Positions 9,942 to 50,830 of a stretch of DNA of 64,000 nt are shown one piece after another. The stretch is from Erodium maritimum. Its lineage: Eukaryota; Streptophyta; Magnoliopsida; Geraniales; Geraniaceae. The position numbers were made by a program, and so were the translations under genes. Location of the stretch: positions 61,798,039 to 61,862,038 of the forward strand of contig OY997593.1 of the NCBI GenBank assembly GCA_963921825.1, written 5' to 3'. How positions within the stretch are numbered: the stretch's first letter is position 1; every line of letters begins with the position of its first letter. Below the pieces are notes generated by a model, which worked only from the letters and a program-made list of their open reading frames with translations, was not told the origin of the DNA and made no database searches.

Positions 9942-12339
9942 GCAGCGCCTCCTTATTCTCTCTGCTAGGGTTTACAAGCTAGGGTTTACAAAAGGGTTAG
10001 GTGTTTTGCGATTTTATGCATCAATCTTCCATGGAATTCACGGGTATGGAGGGAGATGGAGAGCATGCCGGTGACGGGTACGTCCATTGGGGACCTGTTT
10101 TGCTGGAGGAAAGTGTTGTGGCTGTCGAGTCCGAAGTCGGCACGGAACAATCGGACATCGAACCGATGGAGGAGCTGCAGACGACATCTGCGCTGGAGCC
10201 GCTGGTGGCGACGGTGACGGAGGGGACGGACTTGCAGAAGTCGACGGGATCGCAGGAGGAGCCCGTGTTTTCGGAGGAGCAGTGGACGCCGAGGACAGGA
10301 GGGGCACCGGTCGTGTGCTTCTCGGCCTGGGAGGAACCGGGATGGGTCCCGGGAGGTAGGATCCGATCGGGGCCTGCATGCCTCCGCCGCACGCCGGCGA
10401 GGGGACCTCGGCCAAGGAAGACGGGAGCAAGTCGGGGCGCTGCTGCTGGTGTCCCGTTGTTGGCGTCGATGGGTGAGCAGTCCACGCCGATCTCGATATC
10501 TTCGGGATCGGCCATGACACCGGTGGACGCGCCGAAAGTGACACCGGCCGAGGTTGATTGGCGCCGAAGGAAGGGGAAGGGCGTGGTAACTGAGGAGCCG
10601 GGTAGGGTTGAACGTCCGCTGGAGCCGGGTCGCGGTTTCACGGGCGATGCCCGTTGGGCGGCCACATTGGGTCGTAAGTCGGTATGGGCCCAGGGAGAAG
10701 GCGGGGATGTGGCTCGTTGGGCCTCGAGGTTTGGGGCGGGCCGTACAAATGTGGAGGGTGGCTTGGGAGTGGGAGCCGGGGTCGGGCAGCACAATGGAGG
10801 TAACATACGTCCGACCCAAGCAGGAAAGTCGTACCCGACTGAGGACCCCTACCCGGGGGGAAGTCGACCTGAGGGAGGAGCCATGGGACAGCTGGACTCT
10901 CAAATGGGTGCTATGAGGATCAAGGAGGTGGTGGTGCATGTCCAAGAGGTAACAGGACGGGGAAATATGTATCGTTTCGCTTTAGCAGCGAAGGTCCAGT
11001 CTACCAAGAAGATTTATTGGAAGTCGGTGGTGGCACGGTTGGAGGATATCTGGGGAATGAAAGTTGAGGCTAAACCCTTGGAGGGAGGTCTTGTGGATTT
11101 TTTTCTTCAGGTCTACGAAGGAAAGGGAACGAGTATTGGTGGGCGAACCCTGGTCCTTTTGGGACTCTTTGGTCTTGTTCACTGACATACGGCCCACATG
11201 CATGTATCGGAGCTGCAATTTCACCACTTCTCGGTGTGGGCGCGGGTTTCAAATTTGCCGGTGGGGCATGGACGAGGGATGTGGGCTTCAGGATTGGGAA
11301 CACGCTGGGTGTGTGTCAAGGGGTAGATGTAGACAAGAAGGGTCTCTGCTGGGGAGACTTTATGAAGGTCAGAATCAGGGCCGACATTCGGATTCCATTA
11401 CAAAGTCAACTCTGGTTCCGTTTGTCGGTGTCTCAGGTACGAACTCGTCTTTATATCTCGTACGAACACTTACCTAAACACTGTTTTGGGTGTTGCTGCG
11501 CGGGACACCTATTCGCGGTCTGTCCGGTCGTGGGGGGCCTCCGGGGAGTCTCGTTGAAGGCACCATGGGACCCGAGGTCGGAGCTAGAAAAGGCCAAAAA
11601 TGGGAAACCTATCCCGGGGACAAATTGGACTTACCTGAGTGGGTCAGGGATAGGAGATCGGTTTAAGGGGACTCCTCGGACTCCCCCGAGGCGTGAGGAT
11701 ATGGGGCGCTGGGGTCAGTAGGAGGCAGAGGGAGAAGATGAGCCCGTAGGCTGGCTGTCGCGGGAAGCGACGCCGACCCTATCGGGAAACAAGAGGGCTG
11801 GGCGAGATGTGGACTCACCAGGGGACGAAGAATCAGCGGCGTCAAACGGGGCGTCTTCGGCAGCGGCGGGGGGCTTCAAGCACCCTCGCCTCCAGGAATG
11901 AGTGCTGGGATGGCCAGGGAGAGGTTGATCGACTGCACCTCCTCCCTGGTGTATAGGTGGCAAGGGTACCACCAACAGTCGGTAAGTTACTTCCTTACCA
12001 CTTCGGAGTCAGCAATCCCGCGTTCAGGAGCCCTACCATTATCAATCAAGGGAGGACGACGCACGCTGACTTACCGGGGGAGTAATCGGTCCACCACTGG
12101 TTGTTTATCCTCTGATCTGCTCGGTCAGTATCTTATGGTTGTAGTATACTGTATCGGTATCCTTGGACGCTACCGCAGTCCCACCCCTCCGACCGCCCCG
12201 ATGTCAAAGAGCAAAATTTATTTTCCTGCTTATGTCGTTATTGTTATGTTAGTTTGGTTTCCATGTACAGTGCCTCGAGTTTCTGTAGGCACCAATATGC
12301 TTTTACATTAATAATATTGTCATTTCTATCCAAAGAAAA
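9942..12339 (+). mobile_element. Non-LTR element A, ORF1-only, about 2.4 kb
   Basis: Flanked by a 17-bp direct repeat with one mismatch: ATATTAAGATTGATAAT (9925-9941) and ATATTGAGATTGATAAT (12340-12356). The 3' end is A-rich (CCAAAGAAAAA). It holds an ORF1-like region but no endonuclease or reverse transcriptase. TSD length and an A-rich tail fit target-primed reverse transcription by a LINE machinery acting in trans. Element B lies tail-to-tail 178 bp away in the opposite orientation. Confidence 0.8.
10016..11901 (+). pseudogene. Frameshifted ORF1-like (gag-like) protein of element A
   Basis: The frame opens at ATG 10016 and runs to 11185, but similarity to the element B protein shows at least two frameshifts between about 11100 and 11240 before the frame resumes to a TGA at 11899-11901. 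In order: an acidic, Pro-rich N-terminus; a basic WRRRKGK motif (about 10560); a DUF4283-type region (about 10900-11400, ending IRADIRIPL); a zinc knuckle HCFGCCCAGHLFAVC of CX2CX4HX4C type (about 11480-11525); a charged tail ending AAAGGFKHPRLQE. In plant L1-type LINEs such proteins bind RNA. Now a pseudogene of about 630 codons. Confidence 0.7.
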
Positions 12340-12517
12340 ATATTGAGATTGATAATTGTATCACTTTTTCATGATCAATTCAAGAATCAATTTGTTTTTT
12401 TTGTGTGCTTGTTTTTCTTTTATCATGGGTAACTAAATCTTCACAATGGTGACGTAAAGATTAAAGATGATGATTAATGTAACATCAATTATGATTTGTT
12501 TTTAAATCCAAACTAGA

Positions 12518-15047
12518 TTTTTTACTTTTTTGAGAAGAACATATGCAAATTTTATTAAAATATAAAGTAGGGCGATGAGCACATAATTGTACTCATCTTA
12601 CAAAGCAGATACCAACTAACGAACATACAGCAAAGACAGAAAAATAAATTGTGCTCAAGGCATAGGGGTGGTTGAAGGGAATATATGCGGTAGCATCCTG
12701 AGATACCGATACGTCATGCTTTTACCACAAGGCACTGGGCGAGCCAACCGAGTGAAAGGGGAATACTGGTGGACTTACATCTCCCCCGGTATGTCAGCTT
12801 GCATCGTCCTCCCTGGACTGATAATTGTAGGGCTCCTGAATGCGGGATTGCTGACTCCGGACTGGTAGGGGAGACATTTGTCGCCTGAAGATGGAACTGT
12901 CACCATCTATCCGCCAGGAAGGGGTCATAGCTGACCCACCCCTCCCCGGGCCACCTCCGACTCATTCCTGTAGGCGGGGGTGATTATGGCACCCCGCCGC
13001 TGCTACATATGATCCTCCATCTGACACCGTCGATCCCTCTGAATCTTCTAGCTCCTCCTCTCTTTCCAGCCATTTCTTCCCAGACAGCGTCAGACCAGCA
13101 TCCTTGGCCAGCCACTCCGAAGGAATGTCCTCAGTCCCCGTCTCATAGGACGTCTCCCTCCCCCAGCGTGGCATGTGTCGAGGAGATGGAGTGCGTGGTC
13201 CCCCTTTACCCCCTTACTCCCACCTCCCAGATAGCTCCAGTTTGTCCCAGGCGTCGTCTTCCCATGTTTCGCCTTCTCAAGGGCGGATCTCGGGTCTCCT
13301 AAGGCTCGTAAGGAATGACCCTTAACACCCCCCGCTACCGGGCATGACGGAAACAGATGTCCCGCACAGCTACAACCATAGCAGTGATCTGGTAAATGTT
13401 CATACGAGACGTGGAGAAGAGTTCGTACCTGTGATTCCGACAGCCGGAACCAAATCTGACTCTACAAGGGGATGCGTATATCAGCTCGGATTCGAATCTT
13501 CATGAAATTTCCCCACCAGCACCCCGAGCTATCCACATCCATCGCCTGACATACTCCCAGTGCATTCCCCACCCAGAAGCCAGCCTCCTTGTTCCAAGCA
13601 CCCACCGGAAGGTTAGAGACTCTAGCCCACACCGAGAAGTGGTGAAAGCTAAGATCACCCACTTGCATGTGAGCCCGAAGATCCGTAAACAACACTAGAT
13701 ATTCCCAGAACGCCCACGGCTCTCCTGCTAAAACACTCGCCCTTTCCCGAGCCGTGCGAAAAAAGAAAGCCATCAGGCCCCCTTCCAACGAATTTGCTTC
13801 CACGTTCAAGCCCCACAAGTCCTCCATTCTATCCACCAAAGACTTCCAGAAGAAACGTTTAGAAGTCAGCACCTTTGCGCTAGTGCAAACTGAAACTGAC
13901 CTCCAGCGGTGGCAACATCCCCTATAGGGACCACCACCTCCTTGATGCAGAGCGACGAGAGGCGCGACCCCAAGTTCCCAAGTCCAGTCACCCCACCCCC
14001 CCCCCCCCCCGAACGTCCGCGCCAACCGGGTCCATAAAGTTGTTCGACCCGATCGGATCTCCCGATTCTCGACCCGTCTCCAGCGGATCCACCGCGGGTA
14101 TGACCCGGCCCTTCCGCTCCGAACATCCGACCCAACAAGCCCGGCCCGTGGATCCTGGTCAGCCCGGTTCCTGCCCCCACCCGACCGCCCAGGCCTCTAT
14201 GTCACCCGACCCATTTGGCCCACACTCCAGCCCGCCCCGCCTAGCCCGAGGGGCCCAGCCTCCCCGGCCCGCAGTACCACGGCCCGCCCTACGCGCGTCC
14301 ACGAGAAACCCTGCCTCCCGGCCCGGCCCAGGCCCAGTTCCGATGCGCTAGGGTTTTCCCGCGCCACAGCCTTGCCCTTGCGTCTCCTCCACGCCTTCGC
14401 CGTCGGCGACTCAGCGAGAGTCTCGTCCGTGTCCGACGAGATGATCACCACCTCCTCTCTCGCCGCTCCCGCCGCCACTACCTCCGGCTCCTCCTGCACC
14501 CGTGTTCCCGGCGAGCACGCCCTTGCCGGTCCCGTCACCGATTCCCGCGCCACCCGAGGCCTCGGACTCCTCGTCGGCGTCCTTCGAATTATGTTCACTG
14601 TCGTGTGGTGCCACCCTCCACCTAGCAACGCCTCCGCACTTCCCCTCATCGCAGAGAAACGCATCGGGGACGCCGACTCCCCTCTCGACGTCAGCATCTC
14701 CGGGACTGTGAGGGAGTCGCCTCCCTCCACCCCATCCTCCCACTCCGGCAGCCTCTCCTGCCCGAGTCCCTCACCTTCTTCACCGCACCACCCGAGCCCG
14801 TCATCCCCGACACCGCCCGAGCCTTCGAGTCCCGCCCCTCCATCCTCGCACGGGCCATCTTCCCCCGCGCCGAGCACGCCCTCACCACCCCCGATGCCAT
14901 CCTCCACCGGCTCCTCGAGCCACTCGGATGGATCACCGGAGATACGTGACAACCTAGCCGCCGAATATGACATAGTTTGCACCCGTGTAACACTAAACCC
15001 TAGCCCTAGCAAAGAGATAGAGAGAGAGTTGTGAACTTTTTTTCCTC
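12518..15047 (-). mobile_element. Non-LTR element B, ORF1-only, about 2.5 kb
   Basis: Flanked by an exact 13-bp repeat AATCCAAACTAGA at 12505-12517 and 15048-15060. Read on the minus strand its 3' end is A-rich (CTCAAAAAAGTAAAAAA next to the left TSD). Like element A it carries only an ORF1-like region. A 15-base C run lies at 13996-14010, inside the coding part. Confidence 0.8.
12962..14973 (-). pseudogene. Frameshifted ORF1-like protein of element B
   Basis: Starts at ATG 14973 and ends at the stop at 12962-12964, through at least three frame changes (near 14190, in or near the C run at 13996-14010, and about 13200-13450). Visible parts: an acidic N-terminus; a VVIISSDTDE stretch; WRRRKGK; a DUF4283-type region (13462-13950; key pieces KRFFWKSLVDRMEDLWG, EPWAFWEYLVLFTD, MKIRIRADIRIPL); a CX2CX4HX4C knuckle (13342-13383, CYGCSCAGHLFPSC); the tail AAAGCHNHPRLQE. 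The order matches element A, so both derive from one ORF1. No reverse transcriptase follows. Confidence 0.7.
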
Positions 15048-15060
15048 AATCCAAACTAGA

Positions 15061-15763
15061 AATAGTAAGGATGGATCCAAGTATAAATACAAATTGAAAG
15101 GTAGAAATTATCAATAACAAAAAAAACGTAGTAAATGCGTTACGGATACGGATGACATTGGGTATGCATCCTCCATCTATCAAGGATTGAGATACTTTCC
15201 ACGAAAGTTGCTTTAGAGTAACAGAAAGTTGAGAAGCGGATCTTAGAAGTTAAGATCTCTCTACCTGAAACAACAAACAAAAACTGGTATGTACATATGC
15301 AAATAGGTAGGTTGTCTTTGGTAGTTAAGACACAGTTAAGAAGTAAAGAACACATGAGAACAATGGTAGAGAAGCCTACTCAAGCATATCCACCACAACA
15401 TTGTAAAGCAGTATATAGTAGTAATAATCAATTACCAAGTTGCTTGCTCTTTACTTCTCCCTCTCTCTCGATCTCTAAAAAGTGGTCCTCACCGGTCCAA
15501 TTGAGTGAGACATGGAGCAATCAATAGAGGATTGAATGTTTCCTTTTCGGCCACCTCTCAAGCACTCCCATTAATAGTGCTAAGAGGAAAAAATGGTTGA
15601 CTTGGAAACTAGCTAACCCAATTGAGATTTGGACAGATGGAGTTAAAGAGTAGTGTTGAGGGCAAGAAGTAAGATACGTGAATGTAAGTAGTAGTTCCAG
15701 TAACCTTGGAAGTTTGGGATTGGCAATTATGGGGCACCACATGATATCGCTTGATGTTATCTT
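15061..15763. other. Host spacer between elements B and D
   Basis: AT-rich sequence with no recognisable reading frame or repeat boundary, apart from the right TSD of B at its left edge and the left TSD of D (15764-15778) at its right edge. Confidence 0.5.
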
Positions 15764-15778
15764 AAGAAACTCATTGAT

Positions 15779-17368
15779 GAACTCTCTCTCTCTCAGAACA
15801 GCTCTTCCTTCTCCCTTACTTCTCAACCCTAACCTTTCGGCACCGTCGACGTCGGATCTGACCTCCTCTGGAGCCAGTGAAGACGTCGGTAGTGAGACCC
15901 TTCCCTTGCCTCTTTGCTTTCCCCTAACCCTTCCTTCGTCGCCGCCCGGTTGGCTGCTCCAGATCTACTCGTGGGAGTAGCTTCTCCTCTGCTCGGCCGA
16001 AGATCTACATAGATATTGGCTTCCACCGCTTATTCCTCCTCATCTTCTCTTCTTCAGCTTCGTTTCTCCCTTGCATCGATGGCGTCTTCCTCAGATCTGG
16101 TTGTGGGAGGCCTTTCTCCTCCGTCAAGGAGTGGATCGGCACGGATCTGGGTCGATTTCAGTGGTTCGTGGTGAGTTGCGGTAGCTTGGAGCGTCTTGAG
16201 GAGTGGTAGCTGATGCTTGGCCGTTTCGCACTCGATAGAAATGCTGATTCTCCGGCCCTTTTCCGGTGATGGCTGGGGAAAGGGATTCCTCCTTAGGTTC
16301 TGGAGAATCGAGGGCGAGCGGACGCGAGTTGTAGCTTCCTCTCTCCATCTCCGTCCCAGGGCGAGTCAGATCTGTCGTGGGAGGATTTTCCTCATCCTTT
16401 GCGGTGAGGATTATCGCAGATATGACTGGCCTCAATGGCGGGGATGGGAGCTCCTTCGGTGCTCTTACGGTGGATTTGATCTTCTTGATGAGCGCCGCCC
16501 TCCAGTGTCAATCGTGGGACAGGTTTCTTCGCAAAAGATTCGTTTGGTGCTGGAAGATTTGTGCTCTATGGGAGGCTGAGTTGTGTCGTGCCTACTCCGC
16601 CACAGATTTGGTCTTCGTAGGAGATCTTGGGCTCCCGTGGTAAGTCTTCCCACTTCCTCCTTTCTTTTGCTGGGTTTTTTTCTCCCTCCCCTACCTTCTA
16701 TCCCTACTCTAGGCTTCCTGTCTTCCCGGCCAAGTACAGGTCGGGCTTGTCGGTGTTTCGGGGTTGGCCGACGACAAGTTCTTTGAGCTTCTTAGCTCTT
16801 GGAAGCCAGTAGTGGGGGTGGATTGGTTTAGTGGGGTCTGGCTGTCCTCATCCGGATTTTCTCAACTGTCTCGGTCCTGGCCGGCAGTGAATTAAAAACC
16901 ACATTTCCCTTTTTGGGATTGTGGCTCTTTTGAGCTTGGGGTGAATTCTTCCTAGTTTTGGGAAGGTTTTAATTGGGGAGATGCGGGTAGTTGGATGGAC
17001 TCATTTTGCTCTTCATGTTGTTGTTTCTTCTTTTGGCTTGTAGTTGGTTTGGTTTCTTCTTGCTTTCTTAGTTTGGTTCTCTGGTAGTTGTTGTTGTTTT
17101 CTGGCGCTTTTTGTTGGTCTTGTTTCCGGTGTTGAGGTTGTAATCTGGTCTTGTTTCTGGTGTTGAGATTGTAATCTGGTGTTCACCCATGTCTCTTGGG
17201 GTTCTTAGTTGTGTTTAGTTGGTTTTCTTGGTTTTGATTCCCTTACAGGTCGACGTTGAGAGTCTTGAGGTTTCTTTTGAAGATCTGTAGCTGGATCTAG
17301 CTTGTACCAATCCTTTTTCACCTCAAAAGAGGATATAAAATTTCAATATTCATTGCCGATAAAAAAAA
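15779..17368 (+). mobile_element. Non-LTR element D with poly(A), about 1.6 kb
   Basis: A 15-bp direct repeat AAGAAACTCATTGAT at 15764-15778 and 17369-17383 flanks it; the 3' end is a run of A directly before the right repeat. The 5' end is a CT-rich leader. Open frames in 15800-16800 show no domain I know. The T-rich 3' part contains a small tandem duplication (TGTTGAGGTTGTAATCTGG-like, 17125-17180). Probably a non-autonomous retroposon mobilised by a LINE. No detectable sequence kinship to A or B was established by eye. Confidence 0.75.
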
Positions 17369-17383
17369 AAGAAACTCATTGAT

Positions 17384-19020
17384 TAAGCCTTAATCATTCA
17401 GTCACGCTGTATGGACACGCATGGAGATATCCAATCCGGCAGCCGAAGACGCCTCCCTTGTCCTCCCGGCGCTGCTTTGGCTAGGTATTGCTCCTCTCCT
17501 TTCTATCAACTGGTCATCAGTAGTTTCTGTGCGACCATTCCTTGTGGATGGAATCGTCTCTCTGGTACCGGCCAGAGGCGATAGCATGGGTCTTTGGACC
17601 TAGGAACTCTTTTGTCTCGATGATAGTTAGGTTTTGTCCTTGCCGTGTTGTGGTGCGGACCACCGGCAAATGCAAGATCCTTATCCAGTTCGGAATTTAG
17701 GGTTTTGTGGACAAGGAGTTCATGTAAATCCTCCAACATAACTAGGGGGCTTCGGGTTTTAGGTTACACTGTGATTTTTTTTTAGCTTAACGGTAGGCAA
17801 ATTAGGGTATTCAGACCCCTTATTTTTCAAATTGTGCTTTATGTTAGATAAATTCAGTTGCTAGAACTTGTTTTATCGCAGTTAGGTTCCTTTTGTTGTA
17901 CTGTTGTTGGCTTGGTTCATCCTGTGTGCCCTCTCTTAGCTTCTGGGGTCTGTGCACCCTCACTTTGGCTCCCGGGTCTGTGTACCCTTACTTTGCTCCC
18001 GGGTCTATATACTCTGTCTTTGGTCCTTTGCAATCTTTAGGATGATTGCTCTTTTTTGTTAATCTTTTCTTCCTCCGAAAAAATTAATTTAAACATACAT
18101 TCGTTGATCAAAAAAAATCCGTGAACCGAACCTCTCTTTGATGCTCTCTAGTATAAGCATTTCATTGAGAGCTGTATGGAGCATGCTGGAGCTGTTCTCT
18201 CGGACAAGGCACGCCCAATGATTATGTCCCTCGGAAAATGGTGTACAGTGTTGCTTTAAAGTGATGTTTATACTTGACTTGATGATGAACAAACCTTAAC
18301 CAGTCAATATATATATAACCACCAAACAAGTATCCATTATTTGACTCTTCTACTTTGTTCCCTCCATATATAAACGCCCATCTTCACGCATGTCTGCTGG
18401 TAACCAGCTACCTCAACGTGCAGGTTTCGTCTATATTTCAGTTCCGCATTCCATTTCAAGCCTATATACATGCAGCCAAAGTATATCTACATATATAAAA
18501 GTGACTGCAAGCAGAACAACATGGTGACATCTGCACAGGTATGCATGTAAGATTATTGGCATATATACACAGAACACTTGTTTGGTTACGAAAATCTTTT
18601 GCTAACAACTTGTAAAGCATTGGGTAGACCTTGAGAGGTTCAGCCCGATATACCTTCTCCATTACATTTATTTTTCATATTTGGGTTTTGACCTTACTAA
18701 TGCCGGATGTTTTGGTCCTATATATCATAGAAGCATTGTATATATATGTACACTGTACACAGATATTGTAATTTGCACACTCCTGTCTTAAGCTTTGCAG
18801 CTTCATAATTTATAGTATAAAGGTCTGATATCACTTATCTAAATACCTCCCTAAACTACAAATTTCTAATTATACTTATCATAATTTTAATTTTTTTAAC
18901 CATCATTTAAATTTTTTTAGATTTATATAATTATCACTATACTCAAGAGGGTTTATGTTTGATATCATTCCTATATATAATTAGTATGAACTCCTCTTGC
19001 TAAAATATAGGTTCTTATTA
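17384..19020. other. Repeat-like and AT-rich intergenic stretch
   Basis: 17400-18090 is moderately GC-rich and ends in a T-rich tract plus a short A run, like the 3' part of another retroposon; three short tandem units (CTCCCGGGTCTGTGTACCCT-like, about 28 bp) lie at 17940-18020. No TSD was found. 18100-19020 is AT-rich without an identifiable feature. Confidence 0.35.
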
Positions 19021-20492: not shown

Positions 20493-21504
20493 TTACTTCC
20501 ACAGGTCGATTTGGCAGGTGGAGGCGGACGCATATTCAGCCACAGATCCACCGGACGTGTAATTGGTTTGTTTGGAATCATCTGGGTGACTAAGCTGAGA
20601 AGCTACAAGCTTGTCCAGAACCCTCCAATCAGTGATCACTTGACCCACCACAGCTTGGTCGTTGCTGCAGTAAAACAAATTGTTCATGATCTGGTATTGG
20701 CCCTGATCCTCTACTTGTGTCAGCGATTGTGGCTGCGGGAAAGCGTCTTGACGATGCACACTGTGGTGCTCTTGCTTGCAGGGATGGTAGTGGTGAGAGT
20801 CAAGTTGTAGTTGTGGCATCATCACTTGATGATCATCGTACCAGTCGCTCATTTTCTGGACCGTGGTCATCCGTTTTTTGAACGCCCTACATACCACCCA
20901 ACCTTCTTCCTGTTTCATAACAAATTAAACCTTCCTGCTTAATTAATCAATTAATTATATTCGTGCTTGATCTAACGTTTACCATTAATTAAAATATGTA
21001 ACTTGCCTGAGGAGTGGCATTTTCATTTGTTTCTAGGCGATACTCGTGCATGATCCAATCTGATTTCAGTCCATTCGGGGCTCGACCTTGGTAGAACACA
21101 AGAGTCTTTCTCATGCCCACGAGGCACTGCCTAGCATAGATGGCCTTGTCTCTTCCCGTGGCTTTCCAGAACCCAGCTTTTGTAGCTCTGTTGGTGCGAG
21201 TTCCCGTTGGATACTTCTTGTCCTTGTGGCTGAAGAAATACCAGTCGTTCTGCTCTTCGCTCCCTAAGCTGCACATTTCTGTACCATACCCAAGTGTCCA
21301 TAAGTGTAATCTCAAAATTGTAGTATATAAGATGTTGATGATACCTTGGAGATCCCAAGGTTCAATCCTGTAGAGATCAACATCTCTGATGACATCTAGA
21401 TCAATTTTGGCTGAAGCAACTTTTTTTCTCAGGTAGTAATCAACAAGCTCTTCGTCAGTGGGATGAAACCTAAACCCGGGAGGGACGTGTGAAAATGTAT
21501 TCAT
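20493..21504 (-). CDS. VND-type NAC-domain transcription factor, three exons
   Basis: Predicted exons on the minus strand: 21504-21345, 21278-21007, 20909-20493; 282 residues. The start is the ATG giving [20 protein letters not shown], the usual VND1-6 beginning. The NAC domain covers about residues 7-157: [18 protein letters not shown] at the first splice site, [57 protein letters not shown] and [13 protein letters not shown]. The C-terminus is His/Gln-rich with [14 protein letters not shown], typical of VND proteins. These nuclear DNA-binding activators switch on secondary-wall and cell-death genes in xylem vessels. Intron 1 is only 66 bp (GT-AG). Intron 2 (21006-20910) has donor CAG/GCAAGT and a normal AG acceptor. 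Arabidopsis VND4/VND5 are the nearest guess; the subgroup is inference. Confidence 0.92.
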
Positions 21505-23342
21505 TATTCTTTCAAATTCACCTGCATCATGCATATGTAAAATGCCTATCACATAAGAATCAAAACTAAGGTTATTGGAACAAGTGATTGAAATTCCATA
21601 TGATGATTATGAGATTGTTGGCTTCTCATCTCACAGTTTATGGTTATTGTTGATAAACAAAAATTTAGATCAAAATGTTGGAATAATTGTTTAGAAACAA
21701 GGAATTGTTCTCGTTCAAATTGAAAATTTTGGGAAGGCTTAGAAATAAAATAGTTAGTTGTATAACCCTTGTGTTTAAAATTTAATTAAGCTGAATTGCT
21801 TCATTTCAACACACAGACATTTTTTGTCATGTCACTTCATAGAAACAACTTACTATGAATCCAAATAAAATAGAAACCTATTCATTTAATAGTCTGTTCA
21901 TCAAATACTTCCTATAAAACATTTAACTGCATGATAAAGATGAACATTCTAACCTGAGTAATTGTTTTATTATGATAACCAATCATATAATTATTGGATG
22001 AAAAAATACATGATGCATAGTTTAAATATTTGATGGAATGAGAACGAGATCAAACTCTTATAATTATGAAATTATAGCAGCTGGAGAAAATATATGTAAA
22101 ACAAAACATTTTTGTCATATTATTTGAATATTGATAACAAAAAATAAACTTGAGACAAAATCATGTTATCCCATGTAACGAAAAGAACCAATAAACATGA
22201 AATATAACTAAAGAAAAAAATGATCAAATGAAAACATATTGAAAACAAGAATCAACCAAATAAAAACATGAGATCCAAACATTAATTGCTATACTATATT
22301 CATAAAATAATTGGCAATACCTATATACACAATTTGTATCCTTTTCTTTACATCTATTCTTTTATATGATTCATACAAATGAAGGTTTTAGTTGATATTT
22401 GCATTTCTTGTATTGTATAAGGCGTGTGATCGAATGATGGCATACAGAGTGCAAATCAATCGGGCATAGACATATTATGGGAGAGACTCAATAAGTGGAG
22501 TGGCAATTCAAAAAGAAAGAAAAGAAGAGACCAAGTAATCTTGATAGAAACCTTCACACACTAATCTTATGCAATGAAAAACGAGATCATAAAACAAACA
22601 CGAAAGAGAAGCATACAAAAAGAAGAAGAGCAACATCATATAAATGGATCCATAGATAGCAAATTAACCTTGAAATATACAATAGAGGTATCGTTTCTCA
22701 CCAAGCAACTACTCGAGTGTGAACTTTGTCTGGTTATGGTCGATAAGATGAAGATTAGATGAGATTATAGAGGTATGATCAGATATTAATATGGGATCAA
22801 AGGGAAGGTGACCGGAGAAGTTTGAATGAAAAAGAAGATGAGATCAAGTTAATGAACAAGGGAGAGAGAGAGAGAGATGCAAAGCCCTAGGTTGCCAAGT
22901 CTAACAATATATTGAAGCTATAGAGATCAAAGAGCAGCTTGATTGAAGCTAAAGCTTTGCCCAAAAAGAAAAAGGGATGGATCAGTAGAATGAAACTCCA
23001 CCTGCTTCTGATAGTGATAGCTATGCTACAGACCACACGTCACAGAATGTTTTTATCTTCTTCTTCTTCTCTCCTCTTTTGTCTCAGACTGATGAAACCT
23101 ATTTATCAAACTTCCACGGGTATAAGAATTTATGCAACTCAAAACTGCTTCTAAATATTCCATTTAACCTTTATTTATCATGCAAACATGTTTGAATTCC
23201 TTCTTTTACCGTCTCTTTCTTTTTTTGCTTGAATAAGACCGCGTGATCTACACGATCGGATTAATCATTACGGGAATATTGCACTTATAGATGCCCCATT
23301 CTTCCTATATATTTTCCACCTCTGCATCCCCTATTATTTTCG
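21505..23342. other. Upstream region of the NAC gene
   Basis: AT-rich sequence upstream of the minus-strand NAC start. It contains a GA dinucleotide run near 22862-22878 and no other recognisable gene. Promoter and 5' untranslated sequence of the NAC gene must lie here, but I cannot fix a TATA box with confidence. Confidence 0.4.
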
Positions 23343-23355: not shown

Positions 23356-24670
23356 TTTTAGAAGAAATGATACTATTATTAATGAAATTTAAAATAGATG
23401 AACCAATAAACCAAGTAGCTATCATAATGCAATAACAGGAAAGTAAACGTTGCTCTGGACATAGGGGCGGTCGAAGGAGAAATCTGCGGTAGCATCCGAT
23501 GACACCGATACAACATGCTCCAACCAAATGGCACTGGTCGAGCCAACCAAGTGATAAGTTCATAGTGGTGGACCGACATCTCCCCCGGCAAGTCAGCGTG
23601 CGTCGTCCTCCCTTGAGTGATACGTGTAGGACGGCTCCTGAACGGGGGATTGCTGACCCCAGACTGGTAGGGGAAAATCATGTCGACTGTTGATGGAACC
23701 AACGCCATCGATCAGCCAGGGAGATGGTACAGCCGACCAACCCCTCCTTGGACCTCCACGGACTCATTCTTGGAGGCGGGGGTGCTTGTGGCCCCCCGCC
23801 GCTGCTATACCTCCAGACCCGACCCGACCCAGGCCACCCCAACCGTTTTCCGCCTGGCCAGCCCCGTCCGGCCCGTAACCAGAGCCCATCTCGACCCAAG
23901 ACCACCGAGCCCTAGATTCCCTTGCCTGCTGCGCCGTCAACCCTTCTTCCGGAACCTTAGCCAACGCCGGCGTCTTCACTAGCGCCACCATCTTCTCCTG
24001 CCGGCCGCCAGACTCCGTCGCGACCCAAGCCAGTATGCTTGGAACCCTAGCCTCCCGTTCCTCTTTCCCCTGCAACGCCACCGCAATATCCCGTCGTCCA
24101 CCGGGCTCAGACACCACGGACTCCGACTCCTGCATGCGTCGTACCACACCCCGCGACGCCACCTATAAACGACCTGTCCCCAACGGCGCCCGGTCTTCCT
24201 CCCCGATCCTCTGTGCCGTCAGGACCTCCGAGACGAGAGTCGCGACTCCTCCTCCGAGAGATCCGGCGAGACCCTCCACGTCCGAAACCGGCGATGCGGG
24301 ACGTGAAGAAAATCGAGACGATGGGATGCAGGGAACCGCACGGCCGGACGACGCCCTCTCCTTGCCGCTCTCTCCATCTCTCACATACACGGAGCTGGTG
24401 AAAAATTCCACCGTCGCCGTCTGTCGCAAAACCCTATCGGTGGGGTTGCACCCTAACTTTATCCTGCCTCGTCCGTGCATGAGCCGCAAAACCTTCGTTG
24501 CCCTGTTCCCCGCTGCTGCAAGCCTCTCCCTTGATGCTCCACCTGCTGTGATCACCAGTAAGAGAAGCCGGAATTCGGCCATGGCCATAGCCATGACAAG
24601 TCACGCCGCAAAGCTGTGCCTAGAGACGGCGACTCTAGGTTTTGGAGAGAAGCGAAAAATCCATTTTTTA
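23356..24670 (-). mobile_element. Non-LTR element E, internally deleted relative of A and B
   Basis: Flanked by a 13-bp repeat with one mismatch: TAACTTAATTATT (23343-23355) and TAACTTAACTATT (24671-24683). The left part (23440-23830) matches element B at 12640-13010 over several hundred bases, in the same orientation. At 1315 bp it is half the length of A and B: the DUF4283 region and zinc knuckle are missing. Confidence 0.75.
23764..24594 (-). pseudogene. ORF of element E lacking DUF4283 and zinc knuckle
   Basis: Starts ATGGCCATGGCTATGGCC at 24594 and stays in one frame to the stop at 23764, interrupted by a single in-frame stop (24163-24165). The C-terminus GGIAAAGGHKHPRLQE is nearly the same as that of elements A and B, which shows common descent. 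The N-terminal half is not obviously related to theirs. No RNA-binding motif remains, so this copy, if ever translated, would lack the central functional part. Confidence 0.55.
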
Positions 24671-26897: not shown

Positions 26898-26929
26898 GAG
26901 CTAGAGGTGTTCACTAGGGTTTCTGGTGT

Positions 26930-28110
26930 ATGTTAGAATGGATATTAATATGGGTGACTCTCATGGTCACCTACGACCTCACCATTCCCATTCCACCTGC
27001 TTCTTGGGTCCGAGACAGTCCAACGAAGTCCCTAGTTAGAGTTGGGGTAATAGACAGGGCATTGGTCCAAGGTATGGTTGATTCCTTATGCACGTTGGCC
27101 AATAGGGTCTCTACGTTGATGGGTGGAATATGGTGGTCATGAAGCCCAAAGGGATCTTTGGCGGTGGTGGAGGAAGCAGAAGAGATCGAGGGAGACCTTC
27201 TAGGTCATCCAAAGACATCCTTCTTGACTAGCTAGATTGTTAGCCTCGCCTCCTAGTTCGTCTGCATAAAGCCTTCCACCGATACCCCCTTTTGGCCTTG
27301 ATAGAGAGGTCGTAATGGATGGCCGCTCATTCTACTCCTGGGATAATCGCCACGCAGCTATGGCTGATGTGACCCAAACGGCCACAACGCAGATAGAACT
27401 AGAGGATTTTTTCTCCGCTGAAGTGGTTGTGAAATGTCGATCTCCGCTCGGAGCCACGGATATTCCTCCCATCCCCTACGGCTAGTTCGGTCCCCCAACA
27501 ACGCCTCCTTTTCCATTGCATCCCCGATAATGATTCGTATTTGGGACGTACGGGCTTCCACCAGAATGTTGAGCGCTCGGGCCGCAATCCACAAATATTG
27601 AAACACAAGAGAGTCCGACTAGAGGTAGAGACGTGAGGAAGAGGACGAACCCATGAAAGGTCCATGGTTCTTGCTTTAGGATCCCCTCTATCGTCTCTCA
27701 AGAGGGGAAGAGAAAATTGAAGACCATTTCCATCATCGGTTGCACCACCAGCCCCTTGATGTCCTATGTCGCCTCCATGAGATTGTACATAGCCCTTGGG
27801 TTAAAACACCTCTTGGCTAGAAACCGGCGGACAAGCGAAAATCGGTAGCGAGCGCGGTCCATGGCCAAAACCACCCTTTCGGGACAATGATGACCCATTG
27901 TCCTCTTATTTGTCTCCGACATGTGACACCGTACTCATCCTGCCCTCGGTGGACAATAGGTCCTCTGGTGGTTCTCTCCACCATGCGACCGGTCCCAAAA
28001 ATAAAACCGGTGGTTGAAGGACGGAGTGGAAGAAAGGACGCCGACGGGAACAAAGATGGGGAAGATACACTTACATGTTTGCAAGATGGTGACGACAACA
28101 TTACATCAAT
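26930..28110 (-). mobile_element. LINE ORF1 (DUF4283) fragment, degraded
   Basis: On the minus strand, three frames together show a typical DUF4283 order: WVIIVPKGWFWPWTALATDF, then RCFNPRAMYNLMEAT, a KQEPWTFHG-like piece, and EARTSQIRIIIGDAMEKE followed by LRAEIDISQPLQRRKN. Stops and frame changes interrupt it. Such regions belong to ORF1 of plant L1-type elements. No boundaries with a TSD were identified. Confidence 0.55.
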
Positions 28111-29843
28111 TTTGTTTTAAAATTATAAAGAGTCAATCGTTAATTCGAGAGAAGATGTACATTTTTGACTCGCGTGTATTTTCATTTGTGAATCTTAACT
28201 ATACTTTTATTGTACTTATACCCTTTGAATCTCTGGCTTCAAAGTTATCAACCTCTATCTGTGATACAACCAACTGTGATTTTCGATAAACAACATATAT
28301 GCACTATGTTATTTTAATTGATTTATTTTCTCTGTTTGTTTGATTGTATGTCTCACAACCTCTTTCCTTTCTAGATAAACGGAAAAATGTCCAGTCAAAT
28401 ACTATGATATCAAATTTTAATTAATTATCAATCACAAAAAGTACAGGGCATTTATATATAAAGATAACACTAATGAAAGGTCAGAAACATAATTATTTTG
28501 TAACGGGGTTCATAAATGCTGTAACAGTACCCAACCTCAACTCAAGTCGACCACTGGTTGGTTGGCCTCCTTATTGTTATTCATTTTTATCTTGAACTTA
28601 TGGATTATTTCATTTACTTTTTCTTTCCTACGCTTTCAGTACCAAGAGGACCCCACAGACCGACTGTGGACGAATACGATAGTGACACTGCCCCAGATGG
28701 CAGATACATCACGCAAAACGCGCCGTTTCAATTGAAGTGGTGGAAGGTGGGCCCCAATCAAACCGGTATGATATTACGGGACTGTGGCTCAGTACGTGGC
28801 GGCCGATGGTCCGGCGTGGGCTACCCCCTTGATCATTAACTTCACCATCCGTGATGCAGGCTGGTTGTCCCATCGGGCCCCACCCCGTAATCCGTTCGTA
28901 CCCACCCTTTTTTAAGTTATTGTTGTCATTTTATATTGGGCCGAGTGGGCCAGACCCAACAGGTCCAGCTTGTTTTTTTTTTTCCTTTTTTTTCTTATAA
29001 AATATTTTCCATTTTAAGGAGGACTTTGTGTGTTCCATGTTGTTGTAGTGTAGAGTTGTGTGCTTGTGCGTGCCGATAAATTCATCCCTACTTTAATCCG
29101 TTGCCTCGGGCCTGTTCACTTCGCTGCCCAAACAAGTGTTCATAAAGCTAAAGCAAAATATACGCGGTTTAGTGTAGCTTTTTATTTGTTTCTAGTAGCC
29201 GTGAAGAAGTGAACCTAAAGTCTCCGACGTGATCCATGTGTCATGTTGGTCTCGTGGCAGTCTCTTACATAAGCTTCATTAACGTTAATTATAGCTAATA
29301 ATTGAGATAGTTAAGTCGTTTATCTTGATTAGCAATTACTAACCAGCACAGTATTATAGTAATGAAGAGCCAACTCCCCTGATTATATTTCCAATAATGA
29401 CTGGAGTGTCAACAAATATTTGACCTAACCCATGTACAAATATGATGGAATATTAGTTTAGTTTCATTTTAATTCAATTAGCATTAATCCTACTTAAAAA
29501 TAAAAGGAAGAATGGTTTCTTTTGACTGCATTCCTACATACAATATATTATTATTATTAGGTTCACGGCCCACGTCAGGACCTTTTTGGAATTTCTAAGA
29601 TTTTTATTCTTTTTCTTTTTAATTTTTGTAATTATGATTATGTTATCGAGGGTTGACGATTGTACCGCAGTCAGGACCAATCCTTCATCAAGAGGATCTG
29701 CTTACCCACAAAGGGTATGGAGTAAAGGTTCAGCAAAACACTCTTGAACAATACTAAAAACTAATTTGGAAAAAATATTGTTCTATCCATATGTACTTAT
29801 CAATCCATTAGCAATTTATTATGAAACATGTTAACTGTTACAT
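28111..29843. other. AT-rich intergenic stretch
   Basis: No gene recognised. A frame at 28558-28839 encodes 93 residues with no known domain and is probably fortuitous. Confidence 0.45.
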
Positions 29844-31139
29844 AAAGCAAGTGACTGCACGAAACAGCTCTCCAAAACACCTCTATGAGGTTACCTCTTA
29901 ACCTATTTGGATTGTCGCCGCCGCCGTCCTCATCCGTCCTCTCCGATCGCCTGCCTGCAGTCCCTCCACTGCTCCCTCACTCACAGCAGCTCTATCTCCA
30001 GCCATCGCTGCCCAGTCGAGGTCTGCTCGCCGTCGTTCTGTTCCGTCTCCGAACGCCTACATCTGGGCTCCCACTGCCGCCATAGACGCCCCCTCGACAC
30101 CAGCCTCGCCCATTTCCGATCAATCGATGTCGGATCTGCCTACTCCCCATCTCCATGAGTCGGAAATGGTCAACTCCGACCAGATCCACTCACATGCAGA
30201 GGTCCCTCGCGACCTCGGGGTCTCCGCCCAGCACCATGCACGCCGCGCTGCCGATCTCCCACCGCTGCTCGGCCCGGTTTCTGCCTCCCCTCGGAAGCCG
30301 CTGCACCCGACAGATCTGAAGGACAAGTCGGGCTTGCTCTTGCCCATCGTGATGTCTCTGGTCGTCGGCGATGCTACTGACCCACCGGATCCTTGTCCGT
30401 CTTACACCGGACTGTCATCGACGCCGAGGGAGGTCTACCGGGATTTGATCACCCTTCCCTGGCCAATCCAGTCTCCGGTGAGTACTCACCGTCCTCCTCC
30501 GGCCGAGCAGGGGCAGGCTGCTAGCCCTATCTGTCCGAGGGTTGGCCGGCCATCGGGGACGTCTTCTGTCACGCCCCAATTTCAGTAAACCGAACTCGGG
30601 ACGCGAACATTTCAAATCATAAAACACTTGAAACCAGTTTTGAATAAATACTCTGAAACTACTATTTAGTTATCAAAAATAATAATATTTACATTACAAA
30701 CGTCCCAACAAGTGGACAAGGTACAGTATCCGTCACTAGACTCAACAAAATAAAGACCAGACTCCGCTCCTAGCTCCACAAGCTTCAAGAGCTAACCTAG
30801 TCCGTCCGGTGATCAGTACCTGTAGGAAAAACAGCTAGGGGTGAGCGTTCGCTCACCACCACGGATAACAGACTAACTATGGCATAATTAGTAGATAAAG
30901 CCAGTAACACAAAAGTCAAACCCAACACCGGGACTACAGTCCCCAACTCAAGTACTTAACTGACCCACAACCCGTTACTTTCCTCAACAGACTCAACACT
31001 CGATAAAGTAATGTACACCCGACACAACTATCGACGACCTCCTCCAAGGACACGACAGAAAGAATACGCAACGCCAAACAAGATCACAAAGGATCGCACA
31101 CCAACTGCTCAGTAACCTCCCTCAAACCCAGTTATCAAT

Positions 31140-31680
31140 CTCAATCAGGTCAAGGATCGACCTATCGCAATTCCGCGACACGAAGTCGGATCAGGCTGTC
31201 GACCTATCACAATTCATCGACACCAAGTCGGATCAGGCTGTCGACCTATCGCAATTCATCGACACCAAGTCGGATCAGGCTGTCGACCTATCACACTCAC
31301 AACTTCAGGTAACCACAATCACAATCACAGGCAAATTCAACAAACAGGCACTCAAGGCCACCCAAGACACCTCAGTAGTCAAGACTCGGGTTCAACAACC
31401 CCACGGGCACTCACGGCCACTCAAGACACACCAACGGTCAAGACTCGGGTTCAACAACCCCACGGGCACTCACTGCCACTCAAGACACACCAACGGTCAA
31501 GACTCGGGTTCAACAACCCCACGGGCACTCACGGCCACCCCAAAATACCAACAGTAACACACGGGCTCTCATGGCCACCCAAGACACCAATTTAAATAAC
31601 ACGGGCTCTCATGGCCACCCAAGACACCAATTTAAATAACACGGGCTCTCATGGCCGCCCAATACACCAATTTAAACAGT
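31140..31680. repeat. Tandem arrays inside solo LTR copy 3
   Basis: First array (31150-31295): about three units of 57 bp with CGACCTATC..CAATTCATCGACA and CAAGTCGGATCAGGCTGT. Second array (31340-31675): units with CACGGGCACTCACGGCCACT and GACTCGGGTTCAACAACCCC, passing into shorter CACGGGCTCTCATGGCC units. The second contains the hairpin GGGTT-CAAC-AACCC in each full unit. Confidence 0.8.
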
Positions 31681-33190
31681 CAACCTCTGGGCATGGTCAT
31701 ATGCCTCCAGTAATTCTAATATCGCTATGTTCTCTGTTCCTACGACACTACTAAGAGTCACATGCTTTTCTCATAAACGCTACAATCCCGTAACATGCTT
31801 TTCTAATATTTAAATAAACCTACTCAACCCACGACACCCCGGTGTCACATGCAATTCTACTGTTAACTTTCCCTAATCAGGGCCGAGATCCGGCTACTTT
31901 TCCCTACCTCGTATAAAACTCCAAAAGTGCTCCACTAAGTCTCGATGGGATCCCTGTCACTCGCCGAGCTTCCCTTTGCCTCGGTCCGCAGCACGATCTA
32001 AAAGAACACAAATTTAAGGCACTTTTAAACTAGTACGAATAAACCGAAATTCAATAAACTTAACGCCCAAACGTAACCCCGACAATGTCGATCACTCCCA
32101 AACTTCCCAATTACTCGACATTGTCGACAAAGGACCCGTAAAGGCCCGATTCGCCCGACATGGCGAATCTTCCCGGGTTTTGTAAATGCCCTTCTGGGGC
32201 TCCAAAAATTCTCGTTTTCGTTTCTACGGTCTTAGAATAGTTCAAGGATCCCAATGCACTTGACGGAATCGAATTTCGACTTCCGAGTCAATTAATTAAC
32301 GTTTAAAGTTTCTAAAACCCGTTAATTACAACTTTTCCAGTTCAATTCCAAGTTTCGATTCGGTTATGGATAAATGGTCTGGGGAACGTTTTAAACCTCC
32401 CGAAAACTAAAACCGAGCACCCGAGTACGTGGGCCCCACCCGGCCCACTTGGCCGTGGGCCCTAGGATTTCAATGGGGCTTGGCCACCATGGTGGTGGCC
32501 GGCCCTAGGTCCAGCCAGCCACCTCCTATGGTGGCCGGCCACCCCCTATGGTGGCCGGAGCTCCTCCCGAGCTCCCGGTCGCCGGAAAACGTTCAATCAA
32601 ACCTCCAAACACCTCTAAAACGTCTCCAACACTTCCCCAACCTCAATACAACCCTAACCCATTTATTTTAACAAAAACCCTAGCTTTTGAAACTAAACAA
32701 AACGACGATCGGTTTAGGTCTTACCAACGAGGAAGACGAGGGGAAGAAGATTGCTCCTTGCCTTGAGACGATCCAATGGTTGATGACGTGAATAGTACCA
32801 CAAACCCTAACTTCTCTCTCTTTTCTCTCTTCTTCTCCTTCTCTCTCTAAAACTCTCTTCTTTTTCAAAACTAACACATTTTCCCTTTTTTTTCCTTTTT
32901 TACATGTGTGGCCGGCCACCCCCTTGTCCCCTCTAGTTTCCCCCCAAAACTAACACCACCACAATTTGGACAAGTGTCAAGGTAGGTCCCACACCTTTTG
33001 GAAAATATCTACTTGATATTTTCCACTCATATTCGCGAAAAACAGACGTTTCGGGCCCCGAACTGGCACTTTTCCCAAGAAATTACGAAACTTGGCAGGC
33101 TACAAGGAAATGGCTCAACTAAGGCCGCTGAGACGCTGGCTAAGCTTTTTGGATCCAAAACGGTGCTCGAATTGACCAAAACGTCGCTCG

Positions 33191-33216
33191 GTTGACTTTT
33201 CCAGCGAAAAGTCAAC
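33191..33216. repeat. 10-bp-stem inverted repeat near the 3' end of LTR copy 3
   Basis: GTTGACTTTT (33191-33200) and AAAAGTCAAC (33207-33216) are perfect reverse complements around a 6-base loop. The matching place in copy 1 has the same outer stem. Confidence 0.75.
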
Positions 33217-35122
33217 TTTTCCCAAATTGATCAGAAAGTTGCCATGAGTCCCCCGGAACTCACTTTGGTCAATAACGAGGTCAACTTAAGTCCGATATGA
33301 CCCTCGGGGTCAATTTAGGTTAAGTTAAGTGTTTGTCTTAAAAGTTTTAAATTTTCCTGTTTTTCGCAGGTTTGACTGTCGTTGACCGGGAGTGGTTCTT
33401 ACATCTTCTGAGACCCAGGCAAGCCGCATCTCCCCGATCCCGGATTGGGAGGATGAGGAACTGGTGGTCTCGGACGAGGGGGTCTCGCTGTTTACGTCGG
33501 GATCGTACGAGTTCTTCCTCGCAGCGAGGGTTGCAGGGGACGGATCGCACAATTAACACATCGTCTGCGGGATGATGTTGCGGAAATGGAAGGTTACAGG
33601 GATTTTGGTGGATTTCCTGGCCCCCGACGTCACGGGCTACCACTTCCCGTCTGCCAGGACTATGGAAGATATCCGTCATAGGGGCCCCTGAGCTTTAAGG
33701 GTTTTCCCCTCCTCTTTGAACCGCTCCGGCGCTTCGATCGGGCGGAAGACATCAGCTTCAACCATGTGAAACTCGGGGGTTAGGGCACTGAATATCCCGG
33801 GAGGAGCTAGGAACTCATACATTCGGGGTCTCGTGGCGGGCAGTATAGGCACACAAATCCTGTCGGACCCAATTCCGACGGTCCGACGGGAGGACAGTCA
33901 TCTCTGGCTGCGGGTCCGTATGGAGCTGTCTCGGCCACTGCGGCGCAGGACCAGACTTTGTTTCCCAGGTACTGATTCCTCTGTTGTGATAGACCTGCAG
34001 TACGAGAGAGTGGTGGATTTTTGTCGCAGGTGCGGCATGTTGACACACAGGCTACCGAACTGCCAGACTCTGCTGCCGGGGATTGGCCGGGATGAGGTCC
34101 AATATGATAGGTCTATTCTGGTTCCCCGGGACTTGGATGTGGATCAGCTGCTCTAAACGGTCTGGGAGGCACCTCCTCTAGTATCACACCCGGCGATCAC
34201 GTACCTCCTGAGTGATCTAACTCTGAACTCTATGGTCCGTTCTAGAGAGATTACCATGGGCGCTGAGTCGTCCAATGCAGGCACTCTGAAGCCTAACTTT
34301 CTAGCTAAGGTTAACCACGAAGGGTTGACCACTATCTTGCAAGGGGATGGCCATGGAGCACCCAACCCGCCACCCAGGCCCACAAAGCCTGACTTCCTGG
34401 CTAACATCCACCCTGCTGCTGGCCCTGTGATCCAAGCTCCCCCCGGATACAATGTGATGAGGAGGAAGGAAAAGGAGACAGATCCACGGGGCTACCCGGC
34501 CGACCCTCTGGGGAGTCTAGGCAAAGGTGGACCCAGCAGAAGCAAAGGTAAAGGCAAGATGACCACTCTGAATACCAGAAGTGGTTCGATGTATGCCCGC
34601 CCACCGGAGACAAAGAAGCAGAGGGGCGACCCGACTAACCAGCAGCAGTCATGGTATCCGCTCTTTCAGGAGGAGGAGCGAGCAGTCGGAGCGGAGGTCC
34701 AGAGGCCTCCGATGGAGGAATGATCTGCCCCAGTAGGAGTGGGTGGAGTCGGCCCCAGACTATACCTACAGACTCGGGACAACCACTGCTGGGAGGTCTC
34801 GGGCAGCCTGCATCATCAGCACCAGTTATTTCCGTTTATTGCTATTATTTTTATTCTTGTTGGGACTATTTACTTTCTGTTGGTTTTGGAACTTGGTTTA
34901 TTTTCCCCCGTTATGTTGAAACGACGGTAGGGAGATGTCTTGAGTTGTTGCCCACGAGTTTATGTGGGCTAAAATTATGGGTCCATGAGCGCCGGGCTTG
35001 CTATGGTCGGCCCGGACAAACATTTGGAACCCGAGGCGATCACGCCTCGTCCTACTTGATTGTCTTTTGATATTAATGAAATCTCCGGTTACCCGTTTCA
35101 AAAAAAAAAGCAAGTGACTGCA

Positions 35123-50823: not shown

Positions 50824-50830
50824 AAATTTT

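Follow-up and report, generated by a model that had tools for sequence, protein, structure and literature searches.

The genome of Erodium maritimum harbors two kinds of full-length single-ORF LINEs, families that encode only an ORF1 protein and families that encode only ORF2, and we put at about one half the probability that these are split LINEs, i.e., ORF1-only and ORF2-only halves that would be copied by a common ORF2 protein. The starting point was a window of 64,000 nucleotides (the whole stretch of DNA analyzed; assembly GCA_963921825.1, contig OY997593.1, positions 61,798,039 to 61,862,038), in which an initial annotation had noted three elements, A, B, and C. A search of the 763 Mb assembly containing this window identified all three as members of multicopy ORF1-only LINE families. 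The ORF2-only kind is represented by families F1 and F2, and sequence comparisons suggest a pairing of C with F2 and, less surely, of A, B, and a further element, D, with F1.

The initial annotation had described A, B, and C as each carrying an ORF1-type gene and a 3' tail between target site duplications (TSDs) of 13–17 bp, which is borne out by the positions in Table 1. Its assignment of a DUF4283-like domain and a zinc knuckle is likewise supported by Pfam, with several matches below threshold: zf-CCHC_4 was matched in A, B, and C of the window (scores of A and B below the Pfam cut-off), and DUF4283 was matched in B of the window and in fetched copies of A (L049) and C (L026; 25.1 bits, slightly below the cut-off of 27.2). 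In agreement with the reported lack of endonuclease and reverse transcriptase, Pfam detected neither domain in the stop-free frames that were scanned, among them the frames downstream of ORF1 in A and C. A solo LTR splits C, which measures 2405 bp without it. D is a fourth copy that was absent from the initial annotation and retains the ORF1 C-terminus as well as the A/B tail; DUF4283 was not found in it, its two frames gave no Pfam match, and it seems to have arisen in the A/B group by deletion.

Table 1. Positions of the ORF1-only LINE copies and their parts within the window.
Feature	Position	Strand	Evidence or remark
A, full-length ORF1-only LINE copy, 2398 bp	9942-12339	+	TSD, end-to-end genome matches
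A 5' TSD	9925-9941		16/17 identical to 3' TSD
A 3' TSD	12340-12356		16/17 identical to 5' TSD
A DUF4283, just 5' of zinc knuckle	about 11031-11369	+	comparison with copy L049
A ORF1 zinc knuckle (zf-CCHC_4)	11379-11526	+	Pfam, sub-threshold
A 3' untranslated tail	11902-12333	+	75-77% to B and D; directly 3' of ORF1 stop (HPRLQE*)
B, full-length ORF1-only LINE copy, 2530 bp	12518-15047	-	TSD, end-to-end genome matches
B TSDs	12505-12517 / 15048-15060		13/13 identical
B ORF1 zinc knuckle, partial	13339-13437	-	Pfam, sub-threshold
B ORF1 DUF4283	13489-13827	-	Pfam, E=7e-14
D, shorter A/B-group member, 1315 bp	23356-24670	-	TSD 12/13; 76-77% to A and B tails
C, ORF1-only LINE copy split by solo LTR	29860-35106	+	TSD 16/16; contiguous right-part copies
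C TSDs	29844-29859 / 35107-35122		16/16 identical
C 5' leader	29860-29970	+	homologous to 5' leader of ORF2-only family F2
Solo LTR inside C, 2837 bp	30567-33403		own 5 bp TSD TCTTC at 30562-30566 and 33404-33408
C ORF1 zinc knuckle	33923-34066	+	Pfam, E=9e-10
C 3' untranslated tail	34724-35098	+	last 30 nt resemble F2 3' end

A, B, and D form one group with 65–77% DNA identity over shared parts, and DNA comparison detected no similarity between this group and C. At the protein level, ORF1 of A/B/D matches that of C at 22–25%, compared to 24–34% for either group against ORF1 of two-ORF LINEs. Therefore, a single family comprising A, B, and C was rejected: the two sets that the initial annotation had taken for subfamilies stand, but as separate groups.

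Among the genome-wide matches listed, 29 of 46 for A run end to end at 83–100% and 19 of 45 for B at 74–100% (A and B themselves counted). For C, ORF1 is joined directly to the tail in all 40 scored copies of the right part, and the distance from ORF1 motif to tail is 447–449 nt in 42/42 of the pairs listed (pairs within 8 kb). The C tail occurs at 656 places and the C ORF1 motif at 241, with a reversed-pattern control giving 0. Continuation of ORF1 into an endonuclease was found in 0/17 further ORF1 copies, compared to 8/8 two-ORF control loci. An endonuclease stretch approximately 950 nt past the end of one TSD-flanked C copy (L017) was read as a neighbor. The TSDs were assessed in 39 copies (29 of the C family, 6 of A, and 4 of B): a score of at least 13 was reached by the copy's own flanks in 23 of them but in 0 of 1482 cross-pairs, and a score of at least 9 in 31 copies compared to 149 cross-pairs. 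The search thus recovered many full-length copies of 2.3–2.6 kb with TSDs and poly(A)-type 3' ends, in which ORF1 is kept and ORF2 is absent, as expected for HAL1-like LINEs and as the initial annotation had anticipated; the outcome that it considered fatal to its reading, most copies running into ORF2, was not seen.

The ORF1 of C has been under purifying selection during the spread of the family. Nonsynonymous to synonymous variants (stops apart) number 523:253 in singletons compared to 128:121 among variants common to at least 4 copies (Fisher p=1.9e-6, stops counted as nonsynonymous), and the contrast is pronounced in the DUF4283-zinc region (180:96 compared to 23:51, p=9.6e-8), whereas it is not significant in wrong frames or in the C tail. 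This analysis left out L034, a segmental duplicate of L022, and entered the window copy (L009) as joined flanks. The N-terminal extension shows a weak signal (p=0.04) and the C-terminal part no significant one (p=0.38); both count against split LINEs.

F1 and F2 comprise full-length copies with TSDs and a leader of roughly 0.5 kb without ORF1, and they encode endonuclease, reverse transcriptase, and RNase H (Pfam domains of F1: EN, RT, zf-RVT, and RVT_3). For F1, TSDs bound the pairs L070/L039, L072/L073, and L082/L083, and 12 of 34 scored matches (query counted) span the whole element, leader through 3' end; among 8 F1-like pairs fetched for their ends, 2 have clear TSDs and 2 others are 5'-truncated. 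F2 has a TSD of 15/15 in L104/L097 as well as TSDs in 7 of 8 further copies, with constant 5' ends, and 23 of 40 scored copies are contiguous from the leader into ORF2. ORF1 was found inside the element in 0/21 longer F1/F2 5' loci, although the same probes match 10/10 two-ORF loci. As expected of split LINEs, both halves are therefore TSD-bounded and multicopy. An endonuclease tree groups F1 and F2 apart from two-ORF LINEs (support 80), and the ORF1 tree, with a support of 36, does not separate a single split from repeated ones.

Terminal sequences are shared at both ends of C and F2. Their 5' leaders are 73% identical over 109 nt (E=3e-18), and one 24-mer occurs at 82 places genome-wide, 16 heading C, 13 heading F2, and the other 53 unassigned (control 0); the leader comparison was made without 12 rows, namely L018, L025, L032, L034, and 8 lacking the anchor motif (6 C, 2 F2). 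The best scores for 3'-end similarity link A, B, and D to F1 (p=0.0003, 0.004, and 0.0003) and C to F2 (p=0.006). F1 is the top-scoring match of A/B/D, but the 3' similarities are not exclusive: mean scores also link A and B to F2 (p 0.003 and 0.002), A weakly to the two-ORF family (p 0.016), and C to F1 (p 0.004) and an unrelated family (p 0.003). Furthermore, the 3' similarity, the only terminal sequence shared by A/B/D and F1, spans only about 25–30 nt, and a leader common to A/B/D and F1 was looked for without success; the lack of exclusivity, the short span, and the missing leader all count against split LINEs. The initial annotation had proposed to look for an autonomous partner with the same 3' end; F2 fits this and shares the 5' end as well, but the likely partners are ORF2-only elements and not just complete LINEs, and F1 is the less certain one. 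No significant 3' hairpins were found in the tails of A, B, C, D, F1, or F2 (z-scores -1.8 to +0.5), which likewise counts against split LINEs, and only the tail of the two-ORF LINE L044 stood out (z -3.2); the stretches scanned for L043, L050, L051, and L118 did not reach the exact 3' end. In the places examined, no element joins a C-type ORF1 to an F2-type ORF2. At L122, a C-type ORF1 lies upstream of an F2 element, but this was rejected as a joined element, since the C copy ends in a tail and an A-run of its own, with approximately 85 nt of AT-rich sequence between it and F2.

A, B, C, and D are retrotransposed copies of LINEs whose single product is an RNA-binding protein, ORF1, with a DUF4283 domain and a zinc knuckle; its gene is followed by an untranslated tail and then by a short A-run. 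We propose that, together with F1 and F2, they form split LINEs. Because the ORF1-only RNAs carry the F1/F2 3' end, ORF2 protein made from F1 or F2 RNA could copy them in trans by target-primed reverse transcription. The ORF1 protein of C or A/B would serve its own RNA and perhaps that of the partner, and in the C/F2 pair, the common leader may supply the same promoter. In a stricter form, which we regard as conceivable but less likely than not, the bipartite LINE would be obligate: its halves, C with F2 (and A/B/D with F1), would be separately mobile with common ends, each moving only with the other's protein, comparable to a segmented replicon, and the split would have outlasted deep divergence of both. 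A point against split LINEs is that an ORF1 protein may be dispensable for ORF2-only LINEs.

This genome also contains two-ORF LINEs in abundance, a further point against split LINEs; ORF1 and ORF2 lie in one element in L001–L008, L043, and L044, unlike in A, B, C, F1, and F2. Some have a long open ORF2 (1370 aa in L044), and they could mobilize poly(A)-ended RNAs, including ORF1-only ones; most L1 LINEs of flowering plants are proposed to recognize poly(A) in a relaxed manner (PMC3747384). It is thus conceivable, though somewhat doubtful, that ORF1-only elements are HAL1-like parasites moved by two-ORF LINEs via the A-run, with the ORF2-only families as an independent ORF1-free lineage and the C/F2 leader as an ancestral relic. 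However, C agrees with F2 and not with the two-ORF family in its leader and at its 3' end, and ORF1 is kept by selection even though it is not translated together with ORF2. The leaders of F1 and F2 differ between subfamilies, as they might if these were two-ORF LINE copies that had recently lost ORF1 and were families in appearance only, but this is improbable given that F1 subfamilies at saturated synonymous divergence (dS >1.4, JC-corrected) are both ORF2-only with dN/dS of about 0.02–0.08, which shows selection on the ORF2 protein as well, and that the TSD-flanked F2 copies have constant 5' ends. While independent internal deletions or premature ends of complete LINEs can arise in principle, and D resembles such a derivative, we reject them as the origin of A, B, and C as highly improbable, in line with the initial annotation, because dozens of end-to-end copies share the same two ends and a single ORF1-to-tail distance without continuing into an endonuclease.

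The initial annotation had named mammalian HAL1 (half-L1) as the parallel, which encodes only an ORF1 protein and arose from L1 several times independently (PMC5753468). The likeness holds for ORF1-only multicopy elements with TSDs; however, the plant DUF4283/zinc-knuckle ORF1 does not derive from mammalian L1, which makes these elements analogs and not members of HAL1, and whereas the partner L1 of HAL1 has both ORFs, the likely partners here include ORF2-only LINEs, one of which (F2) has both ends of C. Dictyostelium TRE5-A.2 likewise has no ORF2 and relies on the ORF2 protein of TRE5-A.1 for movement in trans (PMC5633606), a kind of movement that we infer here from common ends; unlike the present elements, TRE5-A.1 has both ORFs and TRE5-A elements target tRNA genes. 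Drosophila HeT-A similarly encodes only Gag and depends on the reverse transcriptase of another element, with one element's Gag serving another (PMC5537684), but TART and TAHRE have Pol as well as Gag and all these elements are telomeric, whereas F1 and F2 lack ORF1. The poplar L1-clade LINE Celine resembles our elements in its DUF4283 ORF1, endonuclease and reverse transcriptase in ORF2, poly(A) tail, and TSDs (PMC11288735), but carries both ORFs in one element, like L043 and L044 and unlike A, B, C, F1, and F2.

Among the papers listed by searches of the open-licence PMC literature, we saw no account of plant LINE families that have only ORF1 or only ORF2. If split LINEs exist as proposed, the two LINE proteins can sit on independent mobile elements and be held so by selection, which runs counter to the usual view of strong cis-preference, and mutual dependence of the halves would be an unusual two-part mode of LINE spread. 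Such elements would provide a natural test of the role of the plant ORF1 protein, of RNA choice by the plant L1 reverse transcriptase (common 3' end or poly(A)), and of what distinguishes parasitic from mutual halves. Furthermore, some of the many stand-alone DUF4283 gene models of plants may be mobile ORF1-only elements.

The positions initially annotated for A, B and C, LINE-like elements with an ORF1 and without an ORF2 in a 763 Mb genome, were confirmed, as were their sizes of 2398, 2530 and 2405 bp (C counted without its solo LTR), and their target-site duplications (TSDs) measure 17, 13 and 16 bp, respectively. The only domains found were DUF4283 and zf-CCHC_4, which together constitute the ORF1 core, in agreement with an ORF1-type gene lacking endonuclease and reverse transcriptase. 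A fourth element, D, is listed below together with further features. While A and B are 65% identical across 1318 nt and the tail of D is 76-77% identical to theirs, no DNA alignment of C with A, B or D was found, and the assignment of A/B and C to subfamilies of one family had to be abandoned. ORF1 core identity is 22-25% between A/B and C, and in comparison to the ordinary two-ORF LINEs of the same genome it reaches 30-34% for A/B and 24-28% for C. Judged by these identities, A/B and C are two groups.

Elements and other features in the window
Feature	Position	Strand	Description
Tandem array	1952-2281		unit ~66 bp
Tandem array	5120-5443		unit ~62 bp
Tandem array	7805-8378		unit ~147 bp
NAC (NAM-domain) transcription factor gene	20493-21606	minus	between the elements
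D	23356-24670	minus	fourth copy, shorter than A-C
Solo LTR	30567-33403		inside C; 2837 bp, TG...CA, TSD TCTTC
Tandem repeat	~31344-31538		59 bp repeat within the solo LTR of C
Inverted repeat	49394-50831		large, near-perfect; in several stretches the arms reach 91-99% complementarity; candidate foldback or long MITE-like element

The families of A, B and C are real. Genome searches, as proposed in the initial annotation, revealed many full-length copies with TSDs; since only the best candidates were scored, the copy numbers given are minimum values, and two-ORF members of these families, if rare, could have gone undetected. For A, the best 40 of 3736 candidates yielded 46 rows, 29 of them (A included) end to end, i.e., starting at most 39 nt from the 5' end of A and stopping at most 7 nt from its 3' end. 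For B (best 40 of 3925), 19 of 45 rows were end to end, at 74-100% identity. With the right part of C as query, each of the best 40 of 2632 candidates gave an uninterrupted match to 1409 or more of the 1693 nt; 30 C loci were read, and, C itself apart, the alignment of 26 of 29 extends to 33 nt or less from the 5' end of C, the elements measuring 2376-2439 nt. In the C copy L026, a frame spanning ORF1 stays open for 668 codons. At up to 2 mismatches, 26-mers from the tail and ORF1 of C occur at 656 and 241 places genome-wide, respectively (reversed-pattern controls, 0 each). TSD scores of at least 13 were obtained for 23 of 39 A, B and C copies compared to 0 of 1482 cross-pairs. The first TSD base is A in 23/31 copies and the preceding base T in 19/31, a preference consistent with nicking of the L1 type. 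The C copies L022 and L034, separated by 85 kb on C9, have a common TSD and therefore originated by segmental duplication.

Continuation of most copies into ORF2, the outcome that would have spoken against the initial annotation, was not seen. Among the first 100 listed places per motif, all 42 same-strand pairs of C ORF1 and tail motifs separated by no more than 8 kb show a spacing of 447-449 nt, as expected of an ORF1-only element. Seventeen ORF1 places on the plus strand for which the listing gave no exact tail motif were fetched; C sequence runs from ORF1 into the tail in all 17, with 16 reaching its 3' end and one stopping at position 513 of 629, and no endonuclease match below E=0.36 was found behind ORF1. 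As a positive control, endonuclease was matched in 8/8 two-ORF loci at 1e-71 or better. Furthermore, none of 100 C ORF1 places has an F2-type endonuclease (see below) within 5 kb downstream among 150 listed endonucleases of 8673 candidates. In ten two-ORF loci (L001-L008, L043 and L044), ORF1 carries DUF4283 close to its N-terminus, and ORF2, which overlaps or adjoins ORF1, comes next.

Selection on ORF1 was assessed in 29 C copies by comparing variants in one copy, mostly post-insertion decay, with variants common to at least 4 copies, mostly inherited. N:S was 523:253 with 36 stops for the former and 128:121 with 4 stops for the latter (p=1.9e-6), and for the DUF4283-zinc part 180:96 with 15 stops compared to 23:51 with 2 stops (p=9.6e-8). 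The shift was weaker in the N-terminal extension (p=0.04); neither the C-terminal part (p=0.38) nor the tail (p=0.44) showed a significant one, nor did the wrong frames (p=0.30 and 0.74). Therefore, purifying selection acted on the RNA-binding core during the spread of ORF1-only elements. Comparison of A with B gave a pN of 0.25-0.31 and a saturated pS of 0.78-0.88.

Two LINE families of the same genome, F1 and F2, carry ORF2 without ORF1. F1, found in a partner search by the RT zinc domain, includes three elements with TSDs at both ends: L070/L039 (exact 15 bp; ~550 nt ahead of the ORF2 start), L072/L073 (19 bp with one mismatch; ~0.5 kb) and L082/L083 (15 bp; ~0.5 kb). In L071, whose own TSD is weak, the ORF2 frame is open over 1373 codons with EN, RT, zf-RVT and RVT_3; used as query, it gave 12 matches spanning leader to 3' end, itself included, among 34 scored matches (2091 candidates). 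F2 includes L104/L097, with an exact 15 bp TSD; further copies have a TSD adjoining the leader in 7/8 cases, and 23 of the best 40 of 302 candidates are contiguous into ORF2 from query position 98 or earlier. In a search of 29 F1/F2 5' loci, of which 21 had a sufficient length to be informative, nine ORF1 proteins detected no ORF1 inside any element, the ORF1 matches near these loci being two neighbours (L122 and L070); A and C ORF1 probes matched 10/10 two-ORF loci. ORF2 is conserved between F1 subfamilies (dN/dS 0.02-0.08 at saturated dS; 0.19-0.24 between close copies) and over ~60 codons at the F2 ORF2 start (0.06-0.10 between subfamilies, 0.32-0.47 within). At L122:548-1899, a C-type copy ends ~85 nt upstream of an F2 copy in the same orientation; their proximity may be due to chance or may point to targeting.

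A candidate partner with a common 3' end, as initially anticipated, was found in part. Across 30 nt and with significance from 3000 shuffles, the highest scores of A, B and D are those with F1 (14 each; p=0.0003, 0.004 and 0.0003) and the highest of C is that with F2 (11.5; p=0.006), compared to best scores of 5.5-8 with the two-ORF family (p 0.07-0.50). However, the pattern is less sharp by mean score, by which A-F2 (p=0.003), B-F2 (p=0.002) and C-F1 (p=0.004) are also significant, as are the comparisons of C to an unrelated family (p=0.003) and of A to the two-ORF family (p=0.016). A poly(A) signal may account for part of the likeness.

Most likely, the F2 ORF2 protein would copy C RNA at the nicked target via the common 3' end and A-run, and the F1 protein would likewise copy A, B and D RNA, while the ORF1 proteins would coat their own RNA and perhaps that of the partner. 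According to passages in the respective papers, TRE5-A.2 (PMC5633606) and HAL1 (PMC5753468) are precedents for ORF1-only LINEs copied in trans, and HeT-A is a telomeric precedent for trans-copying (PMC5537684). In contrast to all three, the putative partners that supply ORF2 here lack ORF1. Searches of open-licence papers yielded no account of plant LINE families with ORF1 alone or ORF2 alone.

C and F2 also have a 5' leader in common, their initial 100-120 nt matching at E=1e-5 to 3e-18 in five copies (best, 73% over 109 nt). When 110 nt were compared across 20 C and 11 F2 copies, with 12 rows left out, C copies averaged an identity of 0.79 among themselves and F2 copies 0.76, compared to 0.67 for C with F2 (at most 0.88), and the leaders interleave in a tree with modest support. 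A leader 24-mer occurs at 82 places genome-wide at up to 2 mismatches (control, 0), of which, among the matches listed, at least 16 head C and at least 13 head F2 elements, the other 53 being in neither listing; one exact variant heads both. Among the endonucleases listed, an F2-type start lies 406-671 nt downstream of 12/82 leaders and 1.5-6 kb downstream of none. A variant ending GGTTCAT, found at ~12 places outside assigned C and F2 heads, may head a further subfamily.
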